Below, piece after piece: positions 1 to 33,467 of a DNA stretch of 33,467 nt. The position numbers and the translations under genes are program-made. The DNA comes from Gemmatimonadota bacterium (GTDB lineage: Bacteria; Gemmatimonadota; Gemmatimonadetes; Gemmatimonadales; Gemmatimonadaceae): contig JAPLKS010000016.1 in NCBI GenBank assembly GCA_026387915.1, positions 1 to 33,467 on the forward strand, written 5' to 3'. Below the pieces are notes generated by a model. That model ran no database searches. It worked only from the letters and a program-made list of their open reading frames with translations, and was not told where the DNA came from. Position 1 is the stretch's first letter; the number at the start of each line of letters is the position of its first letter.

Positions 1-31
1 CGCACCGCGGCGGCAGCAACTCGCGTTAGGA
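1..31 (-). repeat. attC site of cassette 4, truncated by the window edge
   Basis: Only one half-site is present. It ends in GTTAGGA at 25-31 (plus strand) and carries the arm GCGGCGGCAGCAACTCG, nearly identical to the matching arm of the attC at 2539-2665. On the minus strand this is the 5' (R''-L'') half of an attC following the small gene at 70-258. It shows that the cassette array continues to the left. Confidence 0.75.
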
Positions 32-69
32 TGCGCGCGGCGCGGACGGCGAGTCGCGCAGGCGCTCGT

Positions 70-258
70 CTACCAGCCGGTGAATCCAGCGCGCAAGTCA
101 CTCACCATGTGGTGCCGCAGAGCGGGAACCGCAGCGTAGGCGACGACCAGAACGGTCACCGACGCGAACGCCAGCGAACGCCCCCACGCTTTGCGGCGAT
201 TGGCGAAGCCGACAACAGGCACCGCGAAGGCCAGCACTTCCAGAATCGCGAAGAACAT
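70..258 (-). CDS. Small hypothetical membrane protein (cassette 4)
   Basis: This is a 62-residue protein with two hydrophobic stretches, roughly residues 1-17 (MFFAILEVLAFAVPVVG) and 28-46, separated by a basic NRRKAWGR loop. That predicts a two-helix inner-membrane hairpin with an R/H-rich C-terminal end. I recognise no family. The ATG at 258 is preferred because AAGGG lies nine bases upstream. An in-frame TTG at 276 would add six residues. The gene fills the cassette between attC 299-422 and the truncated attC at 1-31, in the same orientation as all other cassette genes. Small membrane proteins of unknown role are common integron cargo. Its position as a cassette gene is well supported, its function is unknown, and it could still be a chance frame. 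Confidence 0.5.
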   Translation of the reverse strand: MFFAILEVLAFAVPVVGFANRRKAWGRSLAFASVTVLVVAYAAVPALRHHMVSDLRAGFTGW

Positions 259-298
259 GTCGTGGTACCCTTGCAAAGAGAAAAGATGACTGGCGACA

Positions 299-4527: not shown

Positions 4528-5184
4528 ATGCCCGAACGCCGCTACGACGAAAAAGAAGTCGCCGAGATCTTCAAACGCGCCACCGAAGCGCAACTCGAGG
4601 TTGCGCGCCAGCTCCCGCCAAGCGAAGGGCTCACCCTGGCGGAAGTCCTCGAGATCGGCCGGCAAGCGGGCATCACCGCCGAGTCAGCCGCTGACGCGGC
4701 GCGCTCGCTCGACCGACACGAGCCACGTTTCCGCCGCACCCTACTCGGTGCGACCGTCGGCGTCGGACGCACCGTTGCACTGGAGCGCCGAGTGACGACC
4801 GAAGAATGGGAACGACTCGTCGTGGTGCTACGCGACACCTTCGACGCGCGCGGCGTGGTCAAATCCGACGGCGGACTCCGCCAATGGACCAATGGCAACC
4901 TGCAAATCCTCATTGAACCCACCGAACACGGCGACCGACTCCGCATGCGCACCGTCCACGTCGCCGCGCGAAATATCGTCACGGCCGGTGTTGTCGTGCT
5001 CGGCGCGATCGGCGCAGTCACCGCCGTGAGCGTCGCAACAGGAGTGCCTGGCGCCGCATTGCAGGAACTCGTCCCACTCGCCACCATGGGCGCCACCCTG
5101 CTCGGCGTGGGCGCGCTCCGATTGCGCGGCTGGGCTGCCACGCGCATTCAGCAGATGGACGACATAGCAGCGCGCTTTCGTTAA
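4528..5184 (+). CDS. Hypothetical two-TM protein with SHOCT-like N-terminus
   Basis: This 218-residue protein begins RRYDEKEVAEIFKRATEAQ, a short amphipathic region reminiscent of SHOCT-type and similar N-terminal modules that I associate with Gemmatimonadota and Acidobacteriota hypothetical proteins. A predicted helical segment GLTLAEVLEIGRQAGI (~34-50) and a soluble mixed region (~70-145) follow. Two membrane helices lie at ~151-172 (VTAGVVVLGAIGAVTAVSVA) and ~182-199 (LVPLATMGATLLGVGALRL). The C-terminus is basic and probably cytoplasmic. It is divergent from the integrase gene with 116 bp between starts, and 38 bp precede the following amidase. No function can be assigned; it marks the right border of the integron. 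Confidence 0.8.
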   Translation: MPERRYDEKEVAEIFKRATEAQLEVARQLPPSEGLTLAEVLEIGRQAGITAESAADAARSLDRHEPRFRRTLLGATVGVGRTVALERRVTTEEWERLVVVLRDTFDARGVVKSDGGLRQWTNGNLQILIEPTEHGDRLRMRTVHVAARNIVTAGVVVLGAIGAVTAVSVATGVPGAALQELVPLATMGATLLGVGALRLRGWAATRIQQMDDIAARFR

Positions 5185-5222
5185 CTCGTATTCGTTATCC
5201 TCCAACCGCACCAGCAATCATC

Positions 5223-6788
5223 ATGCGCTTGCTCAAACTCATCGCCGCCGTTGCCATCGCCACAGCTGCCGCGCCCGCCGCACTCGCCGCACAACGCGCC
5301 GCACCGTTCAATGTGCAAGAAACAACTATCGCCCAAGTCCACGCGGCCTTCCGCGCAAAATCGCTCACCTGCCACCAGCTCGTGCAGCGCTATCTCGACC
5401 GCATTAGCGCCGTCGACAAATCAGGGCCGGCCATCAACGCCATCATTACCCTGAACGAGAACTCGCTCGCCGTGGCAGATTCGCTCGATAAACGATTTGC
5501 CAAAGAAGGACTCGTCGGCGCGCTCCACTGCATTCCGATGGTGGTCAAAGACAACTTCGAAACACGCGACCTCCAAACCACCGCGGGCTCGCTCGCCCTC
5601 AAGGGGTGGATTCCCAATCAAGACGCCACCATGGTCGCGCGCGTCCGCGCGGCGGGTGCCATTGTGCTCGCCAAAACGAATCTCGCCGAGTGGGCTTTTA
5701 CGCCGTACGAAACGGTGAGCTCGATTCTCCCCGGCTACACCAAGAATCCCTACGCCCTCGATCGCGTCACCGCCGGCTCTAGCGGCGGCACTGCGGCCGC
5801 GGTCGCCGCCAACGAAGCGGAAGTCGGACTCGGCTCTGATACCGGGAACTCCATTCGCGGCCCCAGCTCGCACAACTCGCTCGTAGGCATCCGCTCCACC
5901 ATGGGGCTCACCTCGCGCGCGGGCGTAGTGCCACTCGCCAACGGTTCTGACATCGCCGGCCCGATGGCCCGCACCGTCGCCGACGCAGTCGCTGTGTTTC
6001 AAGTGGTCGCGGGCGAAGATCCCGAAGACGCGGTCACCGCACCGGCACGCGAACACCGCGAAAAAGATTACAACAGCTTCGTCAAAGCGGGCGGACTCAA
6101 AGGCGCACGTATCGGCATCCTCCGCCAAGCATACGAACGGTCCACGACCGACACCGAAATCGTCAGCGTGTTCATGCGCGCGGTCGACGCTATGAAAGCC
6201 CAAGGCGCGGTCATTGTAGACCCCGCAGGGATCGACTCGCTCAACGCCATCACCCGCGCAGGCGGCGGTGGATGCAGCACCTTCAAGTTTGACCTCGAAC
6301 GCTACCTCGCCAAACGCGCGCCCAACGCGCCAGTACACACGATCAAAGAAGTGCTGCGCAGCGGCAACTATCACCCCACCGTGCAGCTACGGCTGCAGGT
6401 GAACGACTCCGTGACCGTCGCGCCGGAAGACAGCCCGGGGTGCAAAGCGCGCGAAGTGATGCGCGACCGGTTCCGCGCCGCCGTGCTCAAAATGATGGAC
6501 TCGCTCAAACTCGACGCCCTCGTGTATCCCACCTGGAGCAACCCGCCACGCCTCATTGGTGATCTCAACACACCGGCGGGCGACAACAGCCAACTGTTCT
6601 CCCCCACCACGGGCTTTCCCGCCATCACCGTGCCCATGGGCTACACGCGCGGCAACACTCTCCCCGTGGGGATGACTTTCTTTGGCCGGCCGTGGAGCGA
6701 AGGAAAACTGATCACACTGTCGTATGGTTTTGAACAAGCCACCCACCACCGACGCGCCCCCAAGCTTGCCGCGGCGGGCGCTCGCTAA
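5223..6788 (+). CDS. Secreted amidase (amidase signature family)
   Basis: This 521-residue amide hydrolase has a signal peptide (cleavage after ALAA, ~23), so it is probably periplasmic. The amidase-signature Ser-cisSer-Lys triad is visible: Lys109 in VVKDNF, a cis-Ser at 186/187 in TAGSSGGT, and nucleophile Ser210 in GSDTGNSIRGPSS. The consensus GGS before the nucleophile is GNS here, a variation seen in secreted members distinct from GatA. The C-terminal half contains the usual substrate-pocket region with PTWSNPPR and TGFPAITVPMGY. The gene is not next to gatB/gatC, so a role in tRNA amidation is unlikely. Substrate is probably a small or aryl amide or peptide amide, not predictable here. 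It follows the two-TM gene on the same strand. Confidence 0.92.
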   Translation: MRLLKLIAAVAIATAAAPAALAAQRAAPFNVQETTIAQVHAAFRAKSLTCHQLVQRYLDRISAVDKSGPAINAIITLNENSLAVADSLDKRFAKEGLVGALHCIPMVVKDNFETRDLQTTAGSLALKGWIPNQDATMVARVRAAGAIVLAKTNLAEWAFTPYETVSSILPGYTKNPYALDRVTAGSSGGTAAAVAANEAEVGLGSDTGNSIRGPSSHNSLVGIRSTMGLTSRAGVVPLANGSDIAGPMARTVADAVAVFQVVAGEDPEDAVTAPAREHREKDYNSFVKAGGLKGARIGILRQAYERSTTDTEIVSVFMRAVDAMKAQGAVIVDPAGIDSLNAITRAGGGGCSTFKFDLERYLAKRAPNAPVHTIKEVLRSGNYHPTVQLRLQVNDSVTVAPEDSPGCKAREVMRDRFRAAVLKMMDSLKLDALVYPTWSNPPRLIGDLNTPAGDNSQLFSPTTGFPAITVPMGYTRGNTLPVGMTFFGRPWSEGKLITLSYGFEQATHHRRAPKLAAAGAR

Positions 6789-12706: not shown

Positions 12707-13087
12707 TTAGGCGCCGAATCCCAGCAGTGCGGCCACGTCCCGCTGACGTTCGTCGAGCGTCATAAAACTCAGCTCACTCGGCTCGGGCGCGAGATAGAGC
12801 GCGGTGGCGAGATGCCAGCAGTCGGCGCCGCGCACATATCCGGCCTCGAGCACCGCTGCAATCTCAGCGCTCAACGGTCGGTCGGGCAGCAGCCAGGTGA
12901 TGCTGCTCAACACCCGACTCGCGCCTTCCACGCCCTCGCGTCGGAGCGCGGCGCGTAACTCCGCCTCGAGCAGGTTGGACGACACGAGTCGATCGAACCG
13001 CGCCAGCCGGCGCTCAACTGCGGCCGCGCCGCGCTCGCCGAGTGCGACGGCCACGAGGCATGACGTGTCGACGTACGCGACCTTCAT
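12707..13087 (-). CDS. PIN-domain toxin (VapC-like)
   Basis: This 126-residue PIN-domain ribonuclease is the predicted toxin of a type II toxin-antitoxin module. Metal-binding acids are Asp7 (YVDTSCLV), Glu41/Glu43 (NLLEAELRAAL), Asp89 (GADCWHLATAL) and Asp112 (MTLDERQR), in the spacing usual for VapC. It acts in the cytoplasm on RNA when free of antitoxin; the RNA target is unknown. Its ATG overlaps the stop of the upstream antitoxin by 4 bp (13084-13087), so translation is coupled. It is convergent with the MATE gene. Confidence 0.93.
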   Translation of the reverse strand: MKVAYVDTSCLVAVALGERGAAAVERRLARFDRLVSSNLLEAELRAALRREGVEGASRVLSSITWLLPDRPLSAEIAAVLEAGYVRGADCWHLATALYLAPEPSELSFMTLDERQRDVAALLGFGA

Positions 13088-13359
13088 TCGCTGCGGTCGT
13101 CGAGAAAGCGCTTGAGCGCGCCCGGACGTTTTGCCAACTGCGGAATGCGATGTGTTCGCTTGGCGGGCGGGACGAGAATGCCACGCTCTTCTAGGGACGT
13201 CAGGCGAGCCGCGAGTGTATGGCCCTGCGGTTCAACCGCGCGGATCTCGACGGCAGGCTCGCCGTGCACCGTCACAATCACGGCGTGTCCCTCACGAACG
13301 CGACGAACAATGGCGGAGAGGTGCGCCTTGGCTTCGTAGAGCGAGTAGGTGTCCTTCAT
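13084..13359 (-). CDS. Phd/YefM-family antitoxin
   Basis: This 91-residue antitoxin starts MKDTYSLYEAKAHLSAIVRRVREG, then VIVTVHGEPAVEIRAV, the standard Phd/YefM N-terminal DNA-binding and dimerisation fold (~1-55). The C-terminal ~35 residues are basic and proline-containing and would wrap the PIN toxin. Both genes are read from a promoter whose operator palindrome (13373-13390) is the likely autoregulatory site. The start codon lies 6 bp after the predicted -10 box and has no Shine-Dalgarno, so the mRNA is probably leaderless. Confidence 0.92.
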   Translation of the reverse strand: MKDTYSLYEAKAHLSAIVRRVREGHAVIVTVHGEPAVEIRAVEPQGHTLAARLTSLEERGILVPPAKRTHRIPQLAKRPGALKRFLDDRSE

Positions 13360-13365
13360 TCGTAA

Positions 13366-13394
13366 AAGGTATCTAGTCTGACCAGACTAGTCAA
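13366..13394 (-). promoter_or_regulatory. Promoter with overlapping operator palindrome for the Phd/PIN pair
   Basis: On the minus strand a -35 box TTGACT (13394-13389) and a -10 box TACCTT (13371-13366) are separated by exactly 17 bp. A perfect palindrome CTAGTCTG-AC-CAGACTAG (13373-13390) fills the spacer and touches the -35 box, the expected position for repression by the antitoxin complex. The predicted transcription start falls on or beside the antitoxin ATG. Confidence 0.75.
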
Positions 13395-26481: not shown

Positions 26482-26518
26482 CCGTCCGGGAGAGAACTAC
26501 GGCTTCTCTCCCGGACGG
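26482..26518. terminator. Convergent hairpin overlapping the acylase stop codon
   Basis: The arms CCGTCCGGGAGAGAA (26482-26496) and TTCTCTCCCGGACGG (26504-26518) form a perfect 15-bp stem with a 7-base loop. The right arm encodes the last residues of the acylase and its TAG stop (26497-26499) lies in the loop. No U-tract follows on either side, so it is a stem of uncertain terminator efficiency serving two convergent genes. Confidence 0.65.
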
Positions 26519-28743
26519 TATCGCATTTGGGCCTGCGCGACGACGTCTTTTTCGGTGTATGCCACGGTCTTGAGTTCCCCGCGGGCGAACATCGCGGCTT
26601 GATCAGCGTGCCAGCGCGATTCCGGACGCGGGCTCTCGCCATACGCGAGCACCGAGTACGCGTGCGGCACATCCGTGAACTCCACCGCGAGCACCCAACC
26701 ATCGCCGCCGTTGGCGGCGAACTTGCCGTCGCTCGTCCGTTCAAACTGTAGCACACGAAAACAACCTTCGGCGCCGGTGCAGCCGCCCACGGGCACATCC
26801 ACCGTGCCGCGGCGCACGCGATGCACGTCGCCCCACGCCACGTCGTAGGAGCCGTACCGACGAGCGGTTTCACTCACGGCCCAGGCAAACGATTCCGCCG
26901 CGCGCGCAGCATCCGCGAGACCATACGGTGTTTTGAGCGGATCGGCGGCCGACCACGCCTTGGCAAAGCGCAACGAATCGGGTTTGCCGTTGCCGTAGCG
27001 TTGCCACCATACCTCAAAGAGCATCGCGCCCTTGCTGCTGGCGGCGGCACTGTTGTTCCACTTCTCCAATAGCGCGAGCGCGGCGGCCACGTCGCCGGTG
27101 GGGTGCGCGGCGCGCACCGCAGTAATGAGATCGGGCTTCACGCGGTCCGCGAGTAGCATCCGATAATCGTGCTTCATGCGCACCACATCATCCAAGCTCA
27201 CCTTGGTGTCGCCGCCGACAATATCGAGCGCCAACTGACTCCGTAGCGAGAACGACGGCTTCTCGAAATTCGGATACGCGTTGGTCGTATCAATGCCGCT
27301 CCGCACATTGGTGAAGTGCGGCGAGCTGTTCTCGTTGTGAACGTAGCCGCCTTTGGGGTTGAGGAACTGCGGCAGTGAATCAAAGGGCACGTAACGGGTC
27401 CACGTTTCGCGCGTCTCGCGCACGGCAACGGCCACCGTGTCGCCGCCCGAAACATGCGGCAGCGCGGGGAGCGCGGCGTTCCACACAAAAAAGATATTGC
27501 CCGCACGGTCTGCATAGGTGAAGTTCGACGTCAGCCGCCCGCGCAGCTTCATCGCTTCCTTCCACTCGGCGAGCGAGTTGGCGCGCATCATCCGCAAAAA
27601 CTGCTCACCGCCGCGGTACTCGCCGTCGCCTGCGGTTTTAACCACATAGATTTTGCCGTCGGCTCGGTGAATCACTGGCCCGAGCTGCGTCCACCAACTC
27701 TCGCGCGTCTCCGAGGAGAAGGCGCGGCCATGGCGAAACACCACCGTGTTGAGTTCGCGGGTCAGCGGGAGGGAGGTGCCGTCCAGGAGATAATGGTCGG
27801 GCATCGCCGGATCAGCCTCCAGCGCGTAGATCTCGCTCAATCCCTGTGCGTTGTTGGTGGTGGACCAGCCGAGGTTTCGGTTGAAGCCACCGACTACGGC
27901 AAAGGGGCCGCCAATGCGAAAATCGCCGTAGAAGTCGAGCACGCCGGGCACGGTCATATGCGCTTCGTAGTAGCCGGCGCTCCACGCGAGGTGCGGATTG
28001 CGAAGCAAAATGGCACGCCCGCTCTTGGTGCGGCTGGGCGCAAAGGCCCAGGCGTTTGAGCCGACGTTGTCGTTGCGCAGGGCGTCGGCGTTCGTTTGCG
28101 CGGCGGCGTCGTCCGCGGAGCTTGCGTCGGTCGGCCGTTCGGTGCTGCGCGAGGGACCCGCGCCACGCGATCCGCGCGTCCCACGCGCCGAGTCGCGTGC
28201 GGTGGCTGCTTCGAGGCGAGTTACAAACGCCTGCGCGGCCGCCCACGCCGGATCGCCAATATCGAGCGCCGCCACGTCGTAGCCGCTAAAATCGACAGGG
28301 AAACCCTTGGGGTATTCGTCCGGATGCAGGCTCACATAGCGGTTGATTCCCGCCGCGAAGCCGTCGTAGATGTCGCGTGTGTACTGCTCGAGTCGCGGGT
28401 AGTTCGCCACGGCCAGCGCACGCTGATGTTGATTGACGAAGTCCGACGCCATGCTGTCGCGTCCAAACACCCGCCCCATCTCGGCGCGAGCCCGTAGCAC
28501 ATTGATCGCCGTACGGGGACCGTAGTCTTCGAGCTGCAGCCAAGCGAGCGCGTACCCTGCGGCTCGCACGTTTTCGGCGCGAATATGGGGCACACCATAC
28601 GCGGTGCGAATGATCTCAACCTGCCGCCACAGTTCGTCCGGCTGGCGCCGAGCGGCAGTGAGGGAGAGGGCCGTGATGGCAATCAGCAGGGGGGCAATCG
28701 TGGCGAAGGCACGACGCGTGGAGCGGGCATGGAATAAACGCAT
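26497..28743 (-). CDS. Penicillin acylase-family Ntn hydrolase (AHL/penicillin acylase-like)
   Basis: This 748-residue precursor has an N-terminal hydrophobic signal (~12-30), an alpha-subunit region with EIIRTAYGVPHIRAENVRAAGYALAWLQLEDY, a low-complexity spacer rich in Arg, Ser, Ala and Asp (~184-225), then the autoproteolytic site Gly228-Ser229 in NVGSNAWAFAPSRTKSG, where Ser229 becomes the beta-subunit N-terminal nucleophile. RNPHLAW and later NNAQG-type residues follow as in the family. Members hydrolyse amides such as penicillin or acyl-homoserine lactones; which one is used here is unknown. It is periplasmic. It begins 8 bp after the usher-like gene stop, so it is probably the last gene of that operon. 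Confidence 0.92.
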   Translation of the reverse strand: MRLFHARSTRRAFATIAPLLIAITALSLTAARRQPDELWRQVEIIRTAYGVPHIRAENVRAAGYALAWLQLEDYGPRTAINVLRARAEMGRVFGRDSMASDFVNQHQRALAVANYPRLEQYTRDIYDGFAAGINRYVSLHPDEYPKGFPVDFSGYDVAALDIGDPAWAAAQAFVTRLEAATARDSARGTRGSRGAGPSRSTERPTDASSADDAAAQTNADALRNDNVGSNAWAFAPSRTKSGRAILLRNPHLAWSAGYYEAHMTVPGVLDFYGDFRIGGPFAVVGGFNRNLGWSTTNNAQGLSEIYALEADPAMPDHYLLDGTSLPLTRELNTVVFRHGRAFSSETRESWWTQLGPVIHRADGKIYVVKTAGDGEYRGGEQFLRMMRANSLAEWKEAMKLRGRLTSNFTYADRAGNIFFVWNAALPALPHVSGGDTVAVAVRETRETWTRYVPFDSLPQFLNPKGGYVHNENSSPHFTNVRSGIDTTNAYPNFEKPSFSLRSQLALDIVGGDTKVSLDDVVRMKHDYRMLLADRVKPDLITAVRAAHPTGDVAAALALLEKWNNSAAASSKGAMLFEVWWQRYGNGKPDSLRFAKAWSAADPLKTPYGLADAARAAESFAWAVSETARRYGSYDVAWGDVHRVRRGTVDVPVGGCTGAEGCFRVLQFERTSDGKFAANGGDGWVLAVEFTDVPHAYSVLAYGESPRPESRWHADQAAMFARGELKTVAYTEKDVVAQAQMRYRPGEKP

Positions 28744-28751
28744 GCCGAATG

Positions 28752-31484
28752 CTACGGCTTTTCCTTGTTCTCCGGCAACTTTTTGGCGCGAAGATCCATG
28801 CCGTCGCCCACGAAGGTGACGCTGCGGCGCTGCGGCACGAGGCGGAGTTCCACCTCGCGTCGTTCACCTGGGCTGACCACCATCGAGACGCGGTCGTTGG
28901 CAAAGTTGTGGAATGCCGGCAGGTCGCCCGTCCGAATGCGCATCACCCAGGCGCCCGGGGGCACCGTGCCGAAGTCAATGCGTCCCTTTTCGTCGCTCGA
29001 CTGGTACAGCGTGTCCTTGGCGCCTTCGAGGGCCACGAGCACGTTGGGCATCACGCCGGCATCCACCAGCGTGTCGGCACGCGCATTGATGGTGCTGCCC
29101 CCCGCATCGTAGCGGCGCACGACCGCGCGAATGGCGGCACCACGCGTGACCGCCACGTTGAACTCCACCGGCTGCGTGCCGGCGTGGCGCATGTCCACTT
29201 CCGCATTGCCTATCACGAGTTCGCCCACCGTGGGGTGCGAGGCATCGAGTTCGACGCGGTGCAACGCCGGCGGGAGCCCACGAAACATCACACGGCCCTT
29301 GGCGTCGGTGAGTGCGGCGTTGCCATTCATGCGCACGAGGACGCCGGACACCGGCTCACCGGTCAGCGCGTCGCGCACCACACCGATGGCGCGACCGGCA
29401 TCGCGGCTCCGCCCAGTCGGCATGTGCAACGGCATCCGATATTCGGCGAACAATCCGCTTGCGTTCGGCGTGCCGAACACGGCGGTGCGTTCAATGCGAT
29501 GCGCGCGCAGGCCAATCGTCGCGCCATTATCGAAACGATAGTCGAGGCGTACGTCACCCTGACCAAACCAGACGCCTGAGCCGTCGTAATCGCCGAGCGT
29601 CGCGCGCTGCGCCGACACGGCGACGAGCAGTTCCAGCGACAACGGCAGTTTGAGTTGGATATTCGCACCAGAGCTCTGCACGCCGCTCGTGCCGCTTGAC
29701 AGCGTGGCGCCGTAACTCTTGGACCCATACAGGTTGACCACGCCAGCGCTGCCGAAATCGGCGCGCAGGTTGAGCGAAAGTGCGGTGTATTCGCCGTGTC
29801 CCATGAGGAGCCGGTCTTCCGTAAGTCCACGCTCGGCGGACGTCGTCAGGTTGAGGCGCCCGAGGCTCACCGAAGTGGACGCGCGCAAACTGCGCTGATA
29901 CCCGCTGACGGTCACGCTGTCGGTGCTCGCGTCGCGTCGGTCGAGCGTCGTGTATTCAAGCGTGATCACCCCGATCCAGCTGATGCTCGCCGAGGTGGTG
30001 GAGAAGCGCTGCGAGGCCGGCGCGTGCGGCAGCAACGGCGGATGCCAGTCGCGCCCGCTCGCCGACACGTTGAAGGAAAGGCGGGACAGCGGATGATATT
30101 CTACCGACGCATCGCCGACGGTCGCACCTTTCAACGGACCTGCGTACGCCGAATCGGCGCGAATTCCGCTCGCGGAGATCGACCAGCTCTCGCCGCGTGC
30201 AAACAGACGCGCACGCGTGGCCAGCCCAGCGGCGGCCCCGCTGTCGCTACGTGCGCCTTCGAGTTGCAGTGAACCAGCAAACGGCAGTCGCACATCGACG
30301 CCAGTCGTGCCCACCAGTGCCGTGCTACGATTGTTTCCGATGCGTTCCATGGCGCTGCCGAACAAGCGAATCGGCCAGGACGTGGGCATGCCGATGCGAG
30401 CGCCGTACTCCGTGGTGGACTGCGACATCCAGCGCGGGCGCTGCGCGTACGCACCCGTCTCCAGCCAACTCGTAGACAGCCCCACCTCACCGCCGAGTCC
30501 GAGCAGGCCGCTACTCGTCAATGGGGAGAAGGAGAAGACGTTGTCACCCAATTTCAGCTTCCAACGCTCGTTCTCAATGTGCAGCTTGTACTCCTCGCGC
30601 TCACCAAAACCGAACTGCGACCGGCGGTTGGTCGGAGCGGCCAAGGAGAACACCGCGGAGGTGCGGCCATCGGCCAACAGTCCGCCACCTTGAATCACCA
30701 CAGGCGAGACGCCGGACGGGGCACCTGCCGCGCGTACGGCAATCTCAATCGGAACCGTGCTGTAGTTGCCGCCCACGGTCCCGCGCGGGACGAACGTTGT
30801 ATGCTGCGACGCAGAAGCCGAGACCCTGCTGTCATCGCGGTCGCTCACGCGAAGTTCCACGAGATCGTCCACGGCGTTGAGCAGCCCCGGATGCGACATG
30901 CCGCGGACCTCCACAACGGCTGTGCCACCCGGCGGAAGCTGCGCGACGGAGGGCTCCGTGCGCATCCGCACACGTTGCACCGACGTGCCGTCCAGTTCAT
31001 AGGTCGCGGGGAGGTTTCCGTGGTTGCGCACGAGGAACCGTGCGGCAAAGGGCATTCCCGTTGCGACCCAGCCTGGTGCGTCGAGGGGGAGCACTTCCAC
31101 CGCGCGATGCTCGCGCACCGTCACGACGAGTGAGTCGGCCGCAGCCAGATCATCAATACTCGCGCGAAGCACATACCGGCCCGCGGGCGCACCACTCGGC
31201 GTCGCCACACTGAGCAACACCACGTCACGGTCGTGCGGCGCCACGTGCACTTTCACGCTGCCCGTCAGGGCGAGCCAACCGGCGGGAACCGCCAGTGACA
31301 CACGAACGTGGGCCGAATCGCTCCCGTTGTTGCGGAGCGTGAAGGCTGTGGTCATCACATCGCCCGCGTCCGCACTCACGCCCTCGCGCCGCGCCACTCG
31401 GAGCGTCACGCCATCTTGGGCGCGCGCTGTTGAGGCGGCCAAGGCCGCCCACAACAACGCGTGGGCTACGGAGCGAAGGGACAC
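28752..31484 (-). CDS. Usher-like outer-membrane beta-barrel protein
   Basis: This 910-residue protein has a signal peptide (cleavage after ARAQ, ~23). Residues ~25-225 are two Ig-like repeats of the NEW3 type (TLRNNGSDSAHVRVSL, FLVRNHGNLPATYEL). The segment ~275-660 is a run of alternating polar/hydrophobic strands with aromatic ends, as in an outer-membrane barrel, including LGDNVFSFSPLTSSGLLGLGG, which recalls the usher GD...F.G region. The C-terminus (~700-890) has carboxypeptidase-regulatory/usher-plug-like modules (GEPVSGVLVRMNGN...TDAKGRVMFRGLPPA). By length, domain order and position after a chaperone-like gene, I infer an assembly platform for surface fibres. It is not a canonical PF00577 usher. 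The start codon is GTG with a weak ribosome binding site. It lies 20 bp after the chaperone candidate. Confidence 0.7.
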   Translation of the reverse strand: MSLRSVAHALLWAALAASTARAQDGVTLRVARREGVSADAGDVMTTAFTLRNNGSDSAHVRVSLAVPAGWLALTGSVKVHVAPHDRDVVLLSVATPSGAPAGRYVLRASIDDLAAADSLVVTVREHRAVEVLPLDAPGWVATGMPFAARFLVRNHGNLPATYELDGTSVQRVRMRTEPSVAQLPPGGTAVVEVRGMSHPGLLNAVDDLVELRVSDRDDSRVSASASQHTTFVPRGTVGGNYSTVPIEIAVRAAGAPSGVSPVVIQGGGLLADGRTSAVFSLAAPTNRRSQFGFGEREEYKLHIENERWKLKLGDNVFSFSPLTSSGLLGLGGEVGLSTSWLETGAYAQRPRWMSQSTTEYGARIGMPTSWPIRLFGSAMERIGNNRSTALVGTTGVDVRLPFAGSLQLEGARSDSGAAAGLATRARLFARGESWSISASGIRADSAYAGPLKGATVGDASVEYHPLSRLSFNVSASGRDWHPPLLPHAPASQRFSTTSASISWIGVITLEYTTLDRRDASTDSVTVSGYQRSLRASTSVSLGRLNLTTSAERGLTEDRLLMGHGEYTALSLNLRADFGSAGVVNLYGSKSYGATLSSGTSGVQSSGANIQLKLPLSLELLVAVSAQRATLGDYDGSGVWFGQGDVRLDYRFDNGATIGLRAHRIERTAVFGTPNASGLFAEYRMPLHMPTGRSRDAGRAIGVVRDALTGEPVSGVLVRMNGNAALTDAKGRVMFRGLPPALHRVELDASHPTVGELVIGNAEVDMRHAGTQPVEFNVAVTRGAAIRAVVRRYDAGGSTINARADTLVDAGVMPNVLVALEGAKDTLYQSSDEKGRIDFGTVPPGAWVMRIRTGDLPAFHNFANDRVSMVVSPGERREVELRLVPQRRSVTFVGDGMDLRAKKLPENKEKP

Positions 31485-31504: not shown

Positions 31505-32320
31505 CTAGAAGTTGATCGAGAACTGTTTCGCGAACACCGCGTCGCTGCCGGTATCGGCAAAGAGCACGGCCTTATAGCGCCCAGTCGGAAGGGTGCCGAG
31601 GTCGAAGTGCTGGCGGAGCGAGGAGCCCGGATAGAGCAGGCCGCGCGACTGTTTGGCCTTGGCGCGCAGCGCACCGTCGGCGTCGTACACTTCAATCCAG
31701 AGGATTGGCCGGTACGCACGCTCACCAGCGTTCGCCACATCCACGTCAAACATGGAGGCGTTGGACGACGTGGTGCTCACACGTTCGTTCTCGAACTGCA
31801 CCGTGCGCGCCCCCTGATCGCGCACGTGCGTCGTGACCTGAATGGCATAGCGGATGATCGCACCCACGGCTACACCCGGCGCGCCAGGCTTGGCGGACTC
31901 GGCGCTCTCGTTGGGGGCGCCCTCCACCATGATGGTGCTCCAGTAGCTCCCTGTGAGGGAGTCGCGCGACGGCACAAGCACGGAATACGGCACGACGATC
32001 TGCGTGCCGGCGGGCACGACCACGCGCGTGGTCTGCGGCGTGATCCAGTTGGCATTGGAACGTTGCATCGTGCCCGGCTCGTCGAATGCCGACGTGCCAT
32101 TGGCGAGGAAGCTGTAGTCGGTCTGGAAGATGCGCGCGACCTGCGGCCTCGTGGTCGAGTTGCCAATGACGATGGTGCCGGTGTAGCGATCGCCCGGAAA
32201 CGCGACGCGCTCTTCGACCGTGCTACTCAGCACGGCGATCTGCGCCTGGGCGGCGCGGGGCGCCTGCACGAGGCACAGCACAGCGCCGAGGCTAAGAGAG
32301 GACAGGTGACGACTACGCAT
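31505..32320 (-). CDS. Periplasmic Ig-like protein, candidate pilus chaperone
   Basis: This 271-residue protein has a signal peptide (cleavage near AAQA, ~26) and two beta-rich halves. The first (~30-150) runs VEERVAFPGDRYTGTIVIGNSTTRPQVARIFQ to VVVPAGTQIVVPYSVLVP, the order of a PapD-like N-terminal Ig domain with a conserved basic/polar turn. The second (~170-271) contains MFDVDVANAGERAYRPILWIEVYDADG and ends RYKAVLFADTGSDAVFAKQFSINF. I infer a chaperone that holds the downstream pilin-like products for the usher-like protein. The family may also overlap COG1470-type Ig proteins. It is 11 bp from the pilin-like gene and 20 bp from the usher-like gene on the same strand. Confidence 0.65.
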   Translation of the reverse strand: MRSRHLSSLSLGAVLCLVQAPRAAQAQIAVLSSTVEERVAFPGDRYTGTIVIGNSTTRPQVARIFQTDYSFLANGTSAFDEPGTMQRSNANWITPQTTRVVVPAGTQIVVPYSVLVPSRDSLTGSYWSTIMVEGAPNESAESAKPGAPGVAVGAIIRYAIQVTTHVRDQGARTVQFENERVSTTSSNASMFDVDVANAGERAYRPILWIEVYDADGALRAKAKQSRGLLYPGSSLRQHFDLGTLPTGRYKAVLFADTGSDAVFAKQFSINF

Positions 32321-32331
32321 TGTGGTTTCCT

Positions 32332-32781
32332 TTACGGGGCGAGGGTGACCGTGTATGTCACGGTGCGGGTCTGGGAGGTCACGACGCCGGCCGCAGCGGA
32401 AGCGGTCAGCGTATAGGTGAGCGTTTTGGCCGAGGCCGTCGGACTGTTGATCGTGGTGACGATGTCACGCGTCGTTGTGTCGAGCGTCACGGCGCCCATC
32501 GAGGTGTCCCCGACGTCTACGGCGGCCAAGACAGTGAGGGTAGTACCCGTTGGCATGTTCGAGCTCAGCCGAGCGGTGAGCTTGTACGTGCTCGAGCGGT
32601 CGCGACCGCCGATGTTGTAGCTGGCGACGGAATTCGACACGGGCGTGGGGTTGCTACCGGCCACGGCGCTCTGGATGCGCAACGACGGTGAGCCCGACAG
32701 CGTGACGCTCGATTGCGCGTTCGCTACTCCCGCACCGCAGAACACCGCGGCAGCGAAGAGGGCAGGGCGTCGAAAAGACAT
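32332..32781 (-). CDS. Secreted pilin-like beta-sandwich protein (paralog 1)
   Basis: This 149-residue secreted protein has a signal peptide ending GVANA (~22). The mature part is Thr/Ser-rich with regularly spaced hydrophobic strands: SVTLSGSPSLRIQS, YKLTARLSSNMPTGTTLTV, GAVTLDTTTRDIVTTI, and a terminal TRTVTYTVTLAP. This matches the gene at 32792-33250 position by position, including MPTG, GAVTLD and the final TRT...YT strand. Such proteins could be fibre subunits completed by donor strands, with the N-terminal strand as donor; that is inference. No cysteines. ATG 32781 has GGAG eight bases upstream. 10 bp separate it from the next paralog. Confidence 0.72.
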   Translation of the reverse strand: MSFRRPALFAAAVFCGAGVANAQSSVTLSGSPSLRIQSAVAGSNPTPVSNSVASYNIGGRDRSSTYKLTARLSSNMPTGTTLTVLAAVDVGDTSMGAVTLDTTTRDIVTTINSPTASAKTLTYTLTASAAAGVVTSQTRTVTYTVTLAP

Positions 32782-32791
32782 GGCAGGGCTC

Positions 32792-33250
32792 CTACGGACT
32801 GGTGACGAGCGTGTACGAAATCGTTCGGGTTTGACTGGCGATGAAACTCGCCGTGAGATCAGCGGTGAGCTGGTAGGTAATCGACTTCGACGTGACCGAA
32901 GTGCCGATGCCCGTGACCAGATCCCGCGGTGTGGCGTCGAGCGTGACGGCGCCGAGGCTCGTTCCCCCGCCGAGCGCCACCGCCGTTGCCTTGAGCGTGA
33001 GCCCTGTCGGCATGGCGGAACTGAGTTGTGCGACCAACTTCTTGGTGGTGCCAGTGACGTTGATGACGGTATACGTGGTAGAGCCGTCCGTAGCTGGTAA
33101 CAACGAGGTGCCTGCAACGGATGTTGTGACGCGAAGCGTTGGGGTACCACTCACGCTCATGTACTGAGCGCTGATGGCCTTCGTGGGGAGTAGCAATGTT
33201 GCCACTCCCCACGCGTGAACCATCCGAGTTGTGCAGCCCCTGCGCAGCAT
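32792..33250 (-). CDS. Secreted pilin-like beta-sandwich protein (paralog 2)
   Basis: This 152-residue paralog shares with the neighbour at 32332 the blocks SVSGTPTLRV, KKLVAQLSSAMPTGLTLK, GAVTLDATPRDLVTGI and the last strand SQTRTISYTLV. The signal peptide (cleavage near KAISAQ, ~29) follows a short charged N-terminus; an ATG at 33223 (M10) would give a more ordinary signal, but the ATG at 33250 is 6 bp after the upstream paralog's stop and has AAGGA. Function as for paralog 1. The pattern points to tandem gene duplication within one operon. Confidence 0.72.
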   Translation of the reverse strand: MLRRGCTTRMVHAWGVATLLLPTKAISAQYMSVSGTPTLRVTTSVAGTSLLPATDGSTTYTVINVTGTTKKLVAQLSSAMPTGLTLKATAVALGGGTSLGAVTLDATPRDLVTGIGTSVTSKSITYQLTADLTASFIASQTRTISYTLVTSP

Positions 33251-33256
33251 TGTTCC

Positions 33257-33467
33257 TTACACGCCGCCGGTGATGGTGTACGTCACCACGCGGGTGGTCG
33301 ACGCCACCACGCCGGCCAAAGCCGTTGCGTCGAGCGTATACGTCATCGTCAGGCCGGCGGCATTGACCTTCGTGATGCCGGTGACCAGATCGGCCGCCGT
33401 GGCCGACAGCGACTTCGCGCCACCGCTCGTGCCGCCAGCCGGGGCCGCGAGGGTGACCGAGAGCGTC
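33257..33467 (-). CDS. Third pilin-like paralog (5' end beyond window)
   Basis: Only the last 70 codons are present. They encode a sequence containing ADLVTGITKVNAAGLTMTY and ending VASTTRVVTYTITGGV, aligning with RDLVTGIGTS...SQTRTISYTLV of the next gene. The stop TAA is at 33257-33259, 6 bp before the start of paralog 2, and the phase is open to the window edge. The number of upstream copies is unknown. Confidence 0.75.
   Translation of the reverse strand, partial: TLSVTLAAPAGGTSGGAKSLSATAADLVTGITKVNAAGLTMTYTLDATALAGVVASTTRVVTYTITGGV

Follow-up and report, generated by a model that had tools for sequence, protein, structure and literature searches.

The locus analysed here raises the question of what a set of paralogous subunit proteins is made for when their genes stand in one minus-strand row with the genes for a secreted partner protein and for a barrel predicted to lie in the outer membrane. 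The window—the whole 33,467-nucleotide stretch of Gemmatimonadota DNA that was analysed, and the entirety of contig C16 of its genome—carries, in this order, three subunit genes, a gene for a 271-amino acid secreted two-domain protein (31505–32320, minus strand) and a gene for a 910-amino acid predicted outer-membrane barrel protein (28752–31484, minus strand), with 6 to 20 bases between one gene and the next. The 271-amino acid protein is similar to the WxL-interacting protein (WxLIP; DUF916-DUF3324) and is proposed to act as a subunit chaperone, and the barrel is usher-like. The analysis described below makes it probable that the row encodes a donor-strand fibre system working like a chaperone-usher pathway by means of a chaperone of WxLIP type and an usher-like barrel that has no plug; the polymerisation of the subunits is our inference.

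A first-pass annotation had described the three subunit genes as adjacent paralogs sharing MPTG, GAVTLD, RD(I/L)VT and terminal TRT..YT blocks, as forming a series that leaves the window, perhaps with more copies beyond, and as probable components of a heteropolymer. The first gene, sub1 (32332–32781, minus strand; 149 amino acids), lies directly before the chaperone-like gene, and is preceded by sub2 (32792–33250, minus strand; 152 amino acids) and by the 3′ part of sub3 (33257–33467, minus strand). All-against-all alignment, conducted without the first 20 residues of each protein, showed that the three are genuine paralogs with pairwise identities of 43–45% (56/127, 57/126 and 52/120 in the local alignments) and scores of 253, 258 and 218; none of the 1000 shuffles made for each pair scored above 99. 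The similarity exceeds by far what would be expected from chance and from the Thr/Ser/Ala/Val bias that the sequences have in common. The block pattern was only partly upheld, with GAVTLD being present in sub1 and sub2 but replaced by GAKSLS in sub3, which also has ADLVT instead of RD(I/L)VT and ends in TRVVTYT; its MPTG block lies just outside the window, the in-window part beginning with TLSV. Single-sequence scans of Pfam and NCBIfam with the two complete subunits and the 271-amino acid protein returned no match above cut-off.

The sub3 gene is interrupted by the contig end at base 33467. The last 29 bases of the window recur as the start of contig C18, the only other place among the matches listed (40 of 71 candidates scored), and the joined contigs encode a 158-amino acid paralog whose signal peptide and N-terminal extension are located on C18 (L003, about 30–295, minus strand). 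That sub3 might be a piece of a large unrelated protein is ruled out by this joined frame. The series does, then, leave the window, in that sub3 continues on C18, but no further copy follows it, and whole-genome searches with sub3 (38 of 45 candidates scored) and with the family profile listed the same three genes only, one of them in two pieces. It is possible that assembly collapse at the C16/C18 break hides copies, since a sister genome breaks within the same gene. In that genome (locus L182), the contig ends at 6145 inside the class A gene and shares 149 bases with the contig that follows; the broken gene is preceded by a class A-like frame of reduced length (4713–5313), which hints at changes in copy number.

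The distribution of the row was examined at several depths. The 271-amino acid protein was found in 15 of 99 genomes, including its own, and the subunits in 12 of 99, one of them marginally, with the same gene order at 12 loci (own included); within the genus it occurs in seven of 17 other genomes, and in a sample of the phylum in 31 of 395. Relatives of the chaperone-like gene in Gemmatimonadetes are up to 94% identical. Wider spread was measured by one scan of species genomes with a 12-sequence profile of the 271-amino acid protein, which yielded 74 loci. Judged by their record titles, these belong to about 16 groups at the level of phyla: Gemmatimonadota, Planctomycetota, Bacteroidota with Ignavibacteria and Rhodothermales, Deltaproteobacteria, Gammaproteobacteria, Armatimonadota, Bipolaricaulota, Atribacterota, Aminicenantes, Bacillota including Halanaerobiales, Zixibacteria, Riflebacteria, Elusimicrobia, Verrucomicrobiota, Spirochaetota and Synergistota. 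When their reading frames were searched with iterated profiles, subunit relatives were revealed at 72 and barrel relatives at 71 of the 74 loci. Four loci lacked at least one of the two, and three of these (L072, L082 and L132) are cut by a contig end at the 271-amino acid gene. Of the 74 cassette genomes, 50 were tested for Omp85 and 49 of these encode it, as would be expected of a machine working at an outer membrane; a Treponema draft genome is the exception. Deinococcus deserti, Thiocapsa marina, Thiococcus pfennigii and Orenia metallireducens are among the carriers in culture. The alignments used below comprise 74 chaperone-like proteins (the window and 73 loci), 55 barrels including that of the window, picked for near-complete coverage from 91 matches, and 69 subunits, two of them from the window, out of 200 matches.

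Around the row, the next gene upstream of sub3 runs divergently and encodes a response regulator (PF00072 and PF00486), and a divergent response regulator is also found upstream at both other loci checked (L023 and L026). On the other side, a penicillin amidase family gene (26497–28743, minus strand; Pfam E 7.8e-109) begins 8 bases past the barrel gene and is possibly transcribed together with the cassette; at L020 and L024, penicillin-amidase-like frames of ∼24% identity lie some 4 kb away from the barrel gene. Inspection by eye of ten loci with a gap between the chaperone-like gene and the barrel gene revealed no common extra frame. Two Deinococcus plasmids (L175 4947–10520 and L176 4873–10475) have a possibly related row, annotated as hypothetical throughout, which encodes, in turn, a ∼290-amino acid protein, a protein with a weak chaperone-like match, a ∼190-amino acid protein and a ∼1,000-amino acid protein.

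The subunits fall into two classes, distinguished by whether they span the whole 146-position model (class A) or begin near position 22 (class B). The alignment of sub3 to the profile begins at model position 5, which places it in class A, whereas sub1 and sub2 are without the N-terminal extension and belong to class B, which gives the genome of the window a single class A gene and two of class B. Among 78 loci, the nearest upstream neighbour of the 271-amino acid gene is a class B gene at 60, class A at 11, intermediate at four and absent at three; the remaining subunits comprise 89 of class A, 12 of class B and five intermediates, in a count that omits matches ending before model position 121. 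At four of the loci with a class A nearest neighbour (L092, L126, L130 and L131), a class B-type match is present beyond the barrel gene. Column statistics (203 rows, after removal of duplicate loci, intermediates and rows heavily gapped at the C-terminus) show that the class A extension, which comes after the putative signal cleavage site, is hydrophobic at positions 17, 19, 21 and 24 in 99–100% of 98 sequences, and at positions 18, 20 and 22 in 5–16%, these being mostly polar. Conversely, none of the 76 class B sequences has a residue at positions 1–13, and 17 have one at position 22. An alternating hydrophobic and polar pattern is the look of the donor strand in type 1 and P pili. As far as sequence can tell, the class A extension is patterned like such a strand. 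Additionally, an Armatimonadota locus (L087, 1122–6276) was found to have eight subunit genes in a row, seven of class A and one of class B, and at L029 a further class A gene (12739–13374, minus strand) immediately follows the barrel gene in the opposite orientation.

A structural model of a class A subunit (L069, from the same genus and taken from the subunit alignment) has a mean pLDDT of 91.4. When this model was compared by VIA-align, 42 of the 50 listed rows were chaperone-usher pilins or adhesins, with Z-scores of at most 8: the best match was CfaB (Z 8.0, rmsd 3.2, 103 aligned), with CooA at 7.9, EcpA at 7.2, FimG at 6.5 and CsuA/B at 6.3, and the remaining rows included archaeal cannula proteins, TLP-1 and integrins. 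Most of these alignments start at residues 32–41, past the extension. Since Z-scores of 6–8 are common for models without a clear match, the likeness to pilins supports a pilin-type fold but does not prove it. Foldseek with the same model returned no pilin below E 0.001 (best E 0.02), the comparison of the subunit profile with 17 K-12 pilins was not significant (E 0.19), and the best PDB match to the subunit profile had an E of 0.06. Pfam scans of the 69 subunits matched 23 families, none of them a pilin family, and found neither the WxL domain (PF13731; 0/69) nor DUF4402. No WxLIP or DUF4402 protein was among the fold matches listed, a result that excludes nothing. A likeness to DUF4402 proteins is seen in one genome of the same taxonomic order (L032, 1600–4207), where two proteins just above the DUF4402 cut-off flank a distant chaperone-like frame, in contrast to the lack of DUF4402 matches among the scanned subunits.

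The nature of the secreted partner was examined next. The 74-member profile, searched against the PDB, matched EfmWxLIP1 from Enterococcus faecium (9i25/9i1y) with an E of 7.5e-6 over profile positions 82–248 of 256; single-sequence PDB searches with the chaperone-like protein or the barrel gave no useful match. In a Pfam scan of single members at E 0.1, fn3_5 was the commonest match (34/74), WxLIP_PGBD was matched by 13 members (best 1.9e-6) and WxLIP_HBD by five (best 0.002), with the window's own 271-amino acid protein matching none of the three at this threshold. Comparison by hhalign with six Bacillota DUF916 proteins gave a probability of 98.8 and an E of 5.6e-17 over 224 columns, as against E 0.31 for the reversed profile and 0.19 or worse for ten column shuffles. 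These six proteins are not a random sample, having been reached via a chaperone-like family member (Cohnella, Pontibacillus) or via Pontibacillus, and two of them are unannotated tblastn stretches; the PDB and Pfam matches to WxLIP are independent of how they were chosen. Judged from these profile matches, the partner is a two-domain protein homologous to the Gram-positive WxL-interacting protein, minus the membrane anchor.

The region of the family that matches WxLIP contains a conserved strand, GTYWS-MIMVE, followed by a variable polar loop (residues 134–149) and then by residues 150–162 (31835–31873, minus strand), which column statistics mark as a candidate donor (G1-like) strand. In the 74-member alignment, residues 150, 152, 156, 158, 160 and 162 are hydrophobic in 88–100% of sequences, residue 154 is polar, 155 is partly hydrophobic and Arg157 is invariant. 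The strand, loop and strand together resemble the F1–G1 arrangement of PapD-type chaperones. In the Gram-positive system, according to a published study, AlphaFold predicts that a WxLIP strand fills a gap in WxL and so completes the WxL sandwich, and the first WxLIP domain alone has low stability (PMC10599100). By analogy, such completion is the logic of a pilus chaperone, although the main text of that study mentions neither chaperone, usher nor donor strand (PMC10599100). Among the open-access papers searched, none was found to connect either WxL or DUF916, in its title or the start of its abstract, to chaperone-usher systems or to assembly at the outer membrane, although two of the papers contain both WxL and chaperone-usher and one contains both DUF916 and outer membrane; a literature search for tubular donor-strand filaments returned nothing relevant.

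Homology to WxLIP could also be taken to mean that the cassette is related to the WxL/WxLIP surface complex and works at the outer membrane, with the WxLIP-like protein staying in the final complex and holding small beta-sandwich proteins, the barrel only exporting or anchoring them, and no long polymer being made. The view of WxLIP as an anchoring protein in the same study (PMC10599100) would suit this, as would the arrangement in Pontibacillus and Rossellomorea, where a WxL gene—a small beta-sandwich gene, as in the cassette—directly precedes the DUF916 gene and no barrel is annotated beside them. The Pontibacillus WxL protein matches PF13731, and a PDB search with it gave nothing informative. 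In Cohnella herbarum (L173, 2329–9825), the DUF916 gene shares its row with several hypothetical genes and one for a TadA ATPase. However, the hydropathy of the last 60 residues exceeds 1.6 in none of the 74 chaperone-like proteins (maximum 1.28; one is cut by a contig end), whereas all six Gram-positive DUF916 proteins have a hydrophobic C-terminal stretch (1.82–3.23), such that the partner in the cassette appears to have no membrane anchor; the cassette also differs in the lack of a Pfam WxL domain in its subunits and in the added outer-membrane barrel. A complex of this kind would leave the donor-strand-like extension of class A without a role, and the eight subunits in one row at L087 fit a polymer. 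It seems unlikely, then, that the cassette encodes a surface complex of this type.

An origin within the classical chaperone-usher pathways, with a PapD-type chaperone and a FimD-type usher changed beyond Pfam recognition, was considered also. The gene logic is the same as in type 1, P, CFA/I and archaic Csu pili: subunits, a secreted two-domain partner and an outer-membrane barrel, with a pilin-like predicted subunit fold, a donor-strand-like extension and one subunit class that does without it. The chaperone-like profile, however, is strong against WxLIP and not significant against the PapD type. Indeed, PF00345 and PF02753, which we take to be the PapD-type chaperone families, were matched by none of the 74 members at E 0.1 and are absent from all 24 matched families, and hhalign against eight K-12 PapD-type chaperones gave an E of 0.006 with a best shuffle of 0.056. 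WxLIP and PapD may nonetheless share ancestry.

The barrel protein was modelled with a mean pLDDT of 86.7 and a pTM of 0.61. The model has two N-terminal Ig-like domains (residues 27–232, with an NPCBM_assoc match at 39–110; 30789–31406, minus strand), a predicted beta-barrel in which 26 strands were counted (residues 241–692; 29409–30764, minus strand) and two C-terminal beta-sandwich domains (CarboxypepD_reg at 701–763; 28833–29396, minus strand), so that the predicted barrel, like that of an usher, is flanked by beta domains. Classical ushers have a plug domain inserted in the barrel; none is present in the predicted barrel here, where the longest inter-strand gap within residues 241–692 is 15 residues. 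Pfam detected CarboxypepD_reg in all 55 barrels and NPCBM_assoc in 47 of them, and it is these NEW3-type and CarboxypepD_reg-type accessory domains, together with the missing plug, that set the protein apart from FimD-type ushers. The usher family PF00577 is absent from the window's barrel and, for the other 54 barrels, from the 25 of 65 matched families listed; a classical usher elsewhere in the genome was likewise looked for, and no PF00577 match was found in the whole genome, with an E. coli control positive. A profile comparison with seven K-12 ushers gave an E of 4e-6 against 0.003 for the reversed profile, and under another setting 0.002 against 0.3 over a different region; the match thus beats its reversed control, and is only suggestive. 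A PDB search with the barrel profile matched mainly the C-terminal beta-sandwich (NOMO2, E 2.4e-18), with no usher among 28 rows. Foldseek with the barrel model gave FimD as its first hit (E 1.4e-12), although the TM-scores were 0.20–0.28 and the FimD matches were interspersed with axonemal Ig-repeat proteins and porins; VIA-align placed MtrB first (Z 17.9, 414 aligned), followed by PapC and the porin OpdO, equal at 15.4. The modelled barrel appears to resemble ushers, then, but also other large barrels. Since sequence matches to the usher, chaperone and pilin families are lacking, the system is not filed as a chaperone-usher member, and descent from a classical one by divergence alone is rated slightly below the WxL/WxLIP-like surface complex, as improbable. 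That the barrel is a porin-like protein co-transcribed with secreted soluble adhesins or matrix proteins, with no assembly pathway at all, would accord with MtrB being the best VIA-align match, with the many porins that score alike and with the weak subunit match by Foldseek, but is very hard to reconcile with conservation of the cassette over about 16 groups, the usher-like domain order and the two-class pattern.

A donor-strand fibre system with a WxLIP-type chaperone is accordingly left as the preferred reading, and its operation can be envisaged as follows. The cassette would build a thin surface fibre and export it through donor-strand complementation, with each subunit being an Ig-like pilin that is one strand short. 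Within the periplasm, a subunit would be bound by the WxLIP-like protein and lent a strand, for which residues 150–162 are proposed, before being handed to the plugless usher-like outer-membrane barrel for export. At the barrel, an incoming class A subunit would displace the lent strand with its N-terminal extension, and class A would polymerise in this manner. A class B subunit, having no extension, could accept a strand only, and would thus be placed at the tip or the start of the fibre. A single-tip model does not require the two class B genes found at the window locus, and the nearest gene being class A at 11 of the 78 loci also speaks against this reading. Expression is probably controlled by the divergent response regulator. 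The heteropolymer proposed from the three paralogs alone is thus supported, on the basis of the conserved neighbourhood, the two classes and the pilin-like model, with the polymer itself a predicted product.

In a broader sense, it is conceivable, at somewhat less than even likelihood, that the cassette represents an ancient pathway of its own by which outer-membrane bacteria assemble fibres, running parallel to the classical chaperone-usher pathway, and that the WxL/WxLIP system is its membrane-anchored, usherless counterpart; WxLIP would then be a strand-lending chaperone and not primarily a binder of wall or host. If this is the case, many bacterial groups hold a fibre pathway that annotation has missed, an example being a Deinococcus deserti plasmid that carries the cassette with its genes annotated as hypothetical, FimB/Mfa2 family and carboxypeptidase regulatory-like. 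WxL-interacting proteins, about which little is understood, would gain a testable job, namely the lending of a strand to WxL domains, and the surface complexes of Gram-positive bacteria would be linked to fibre assembly at the outer membrane.
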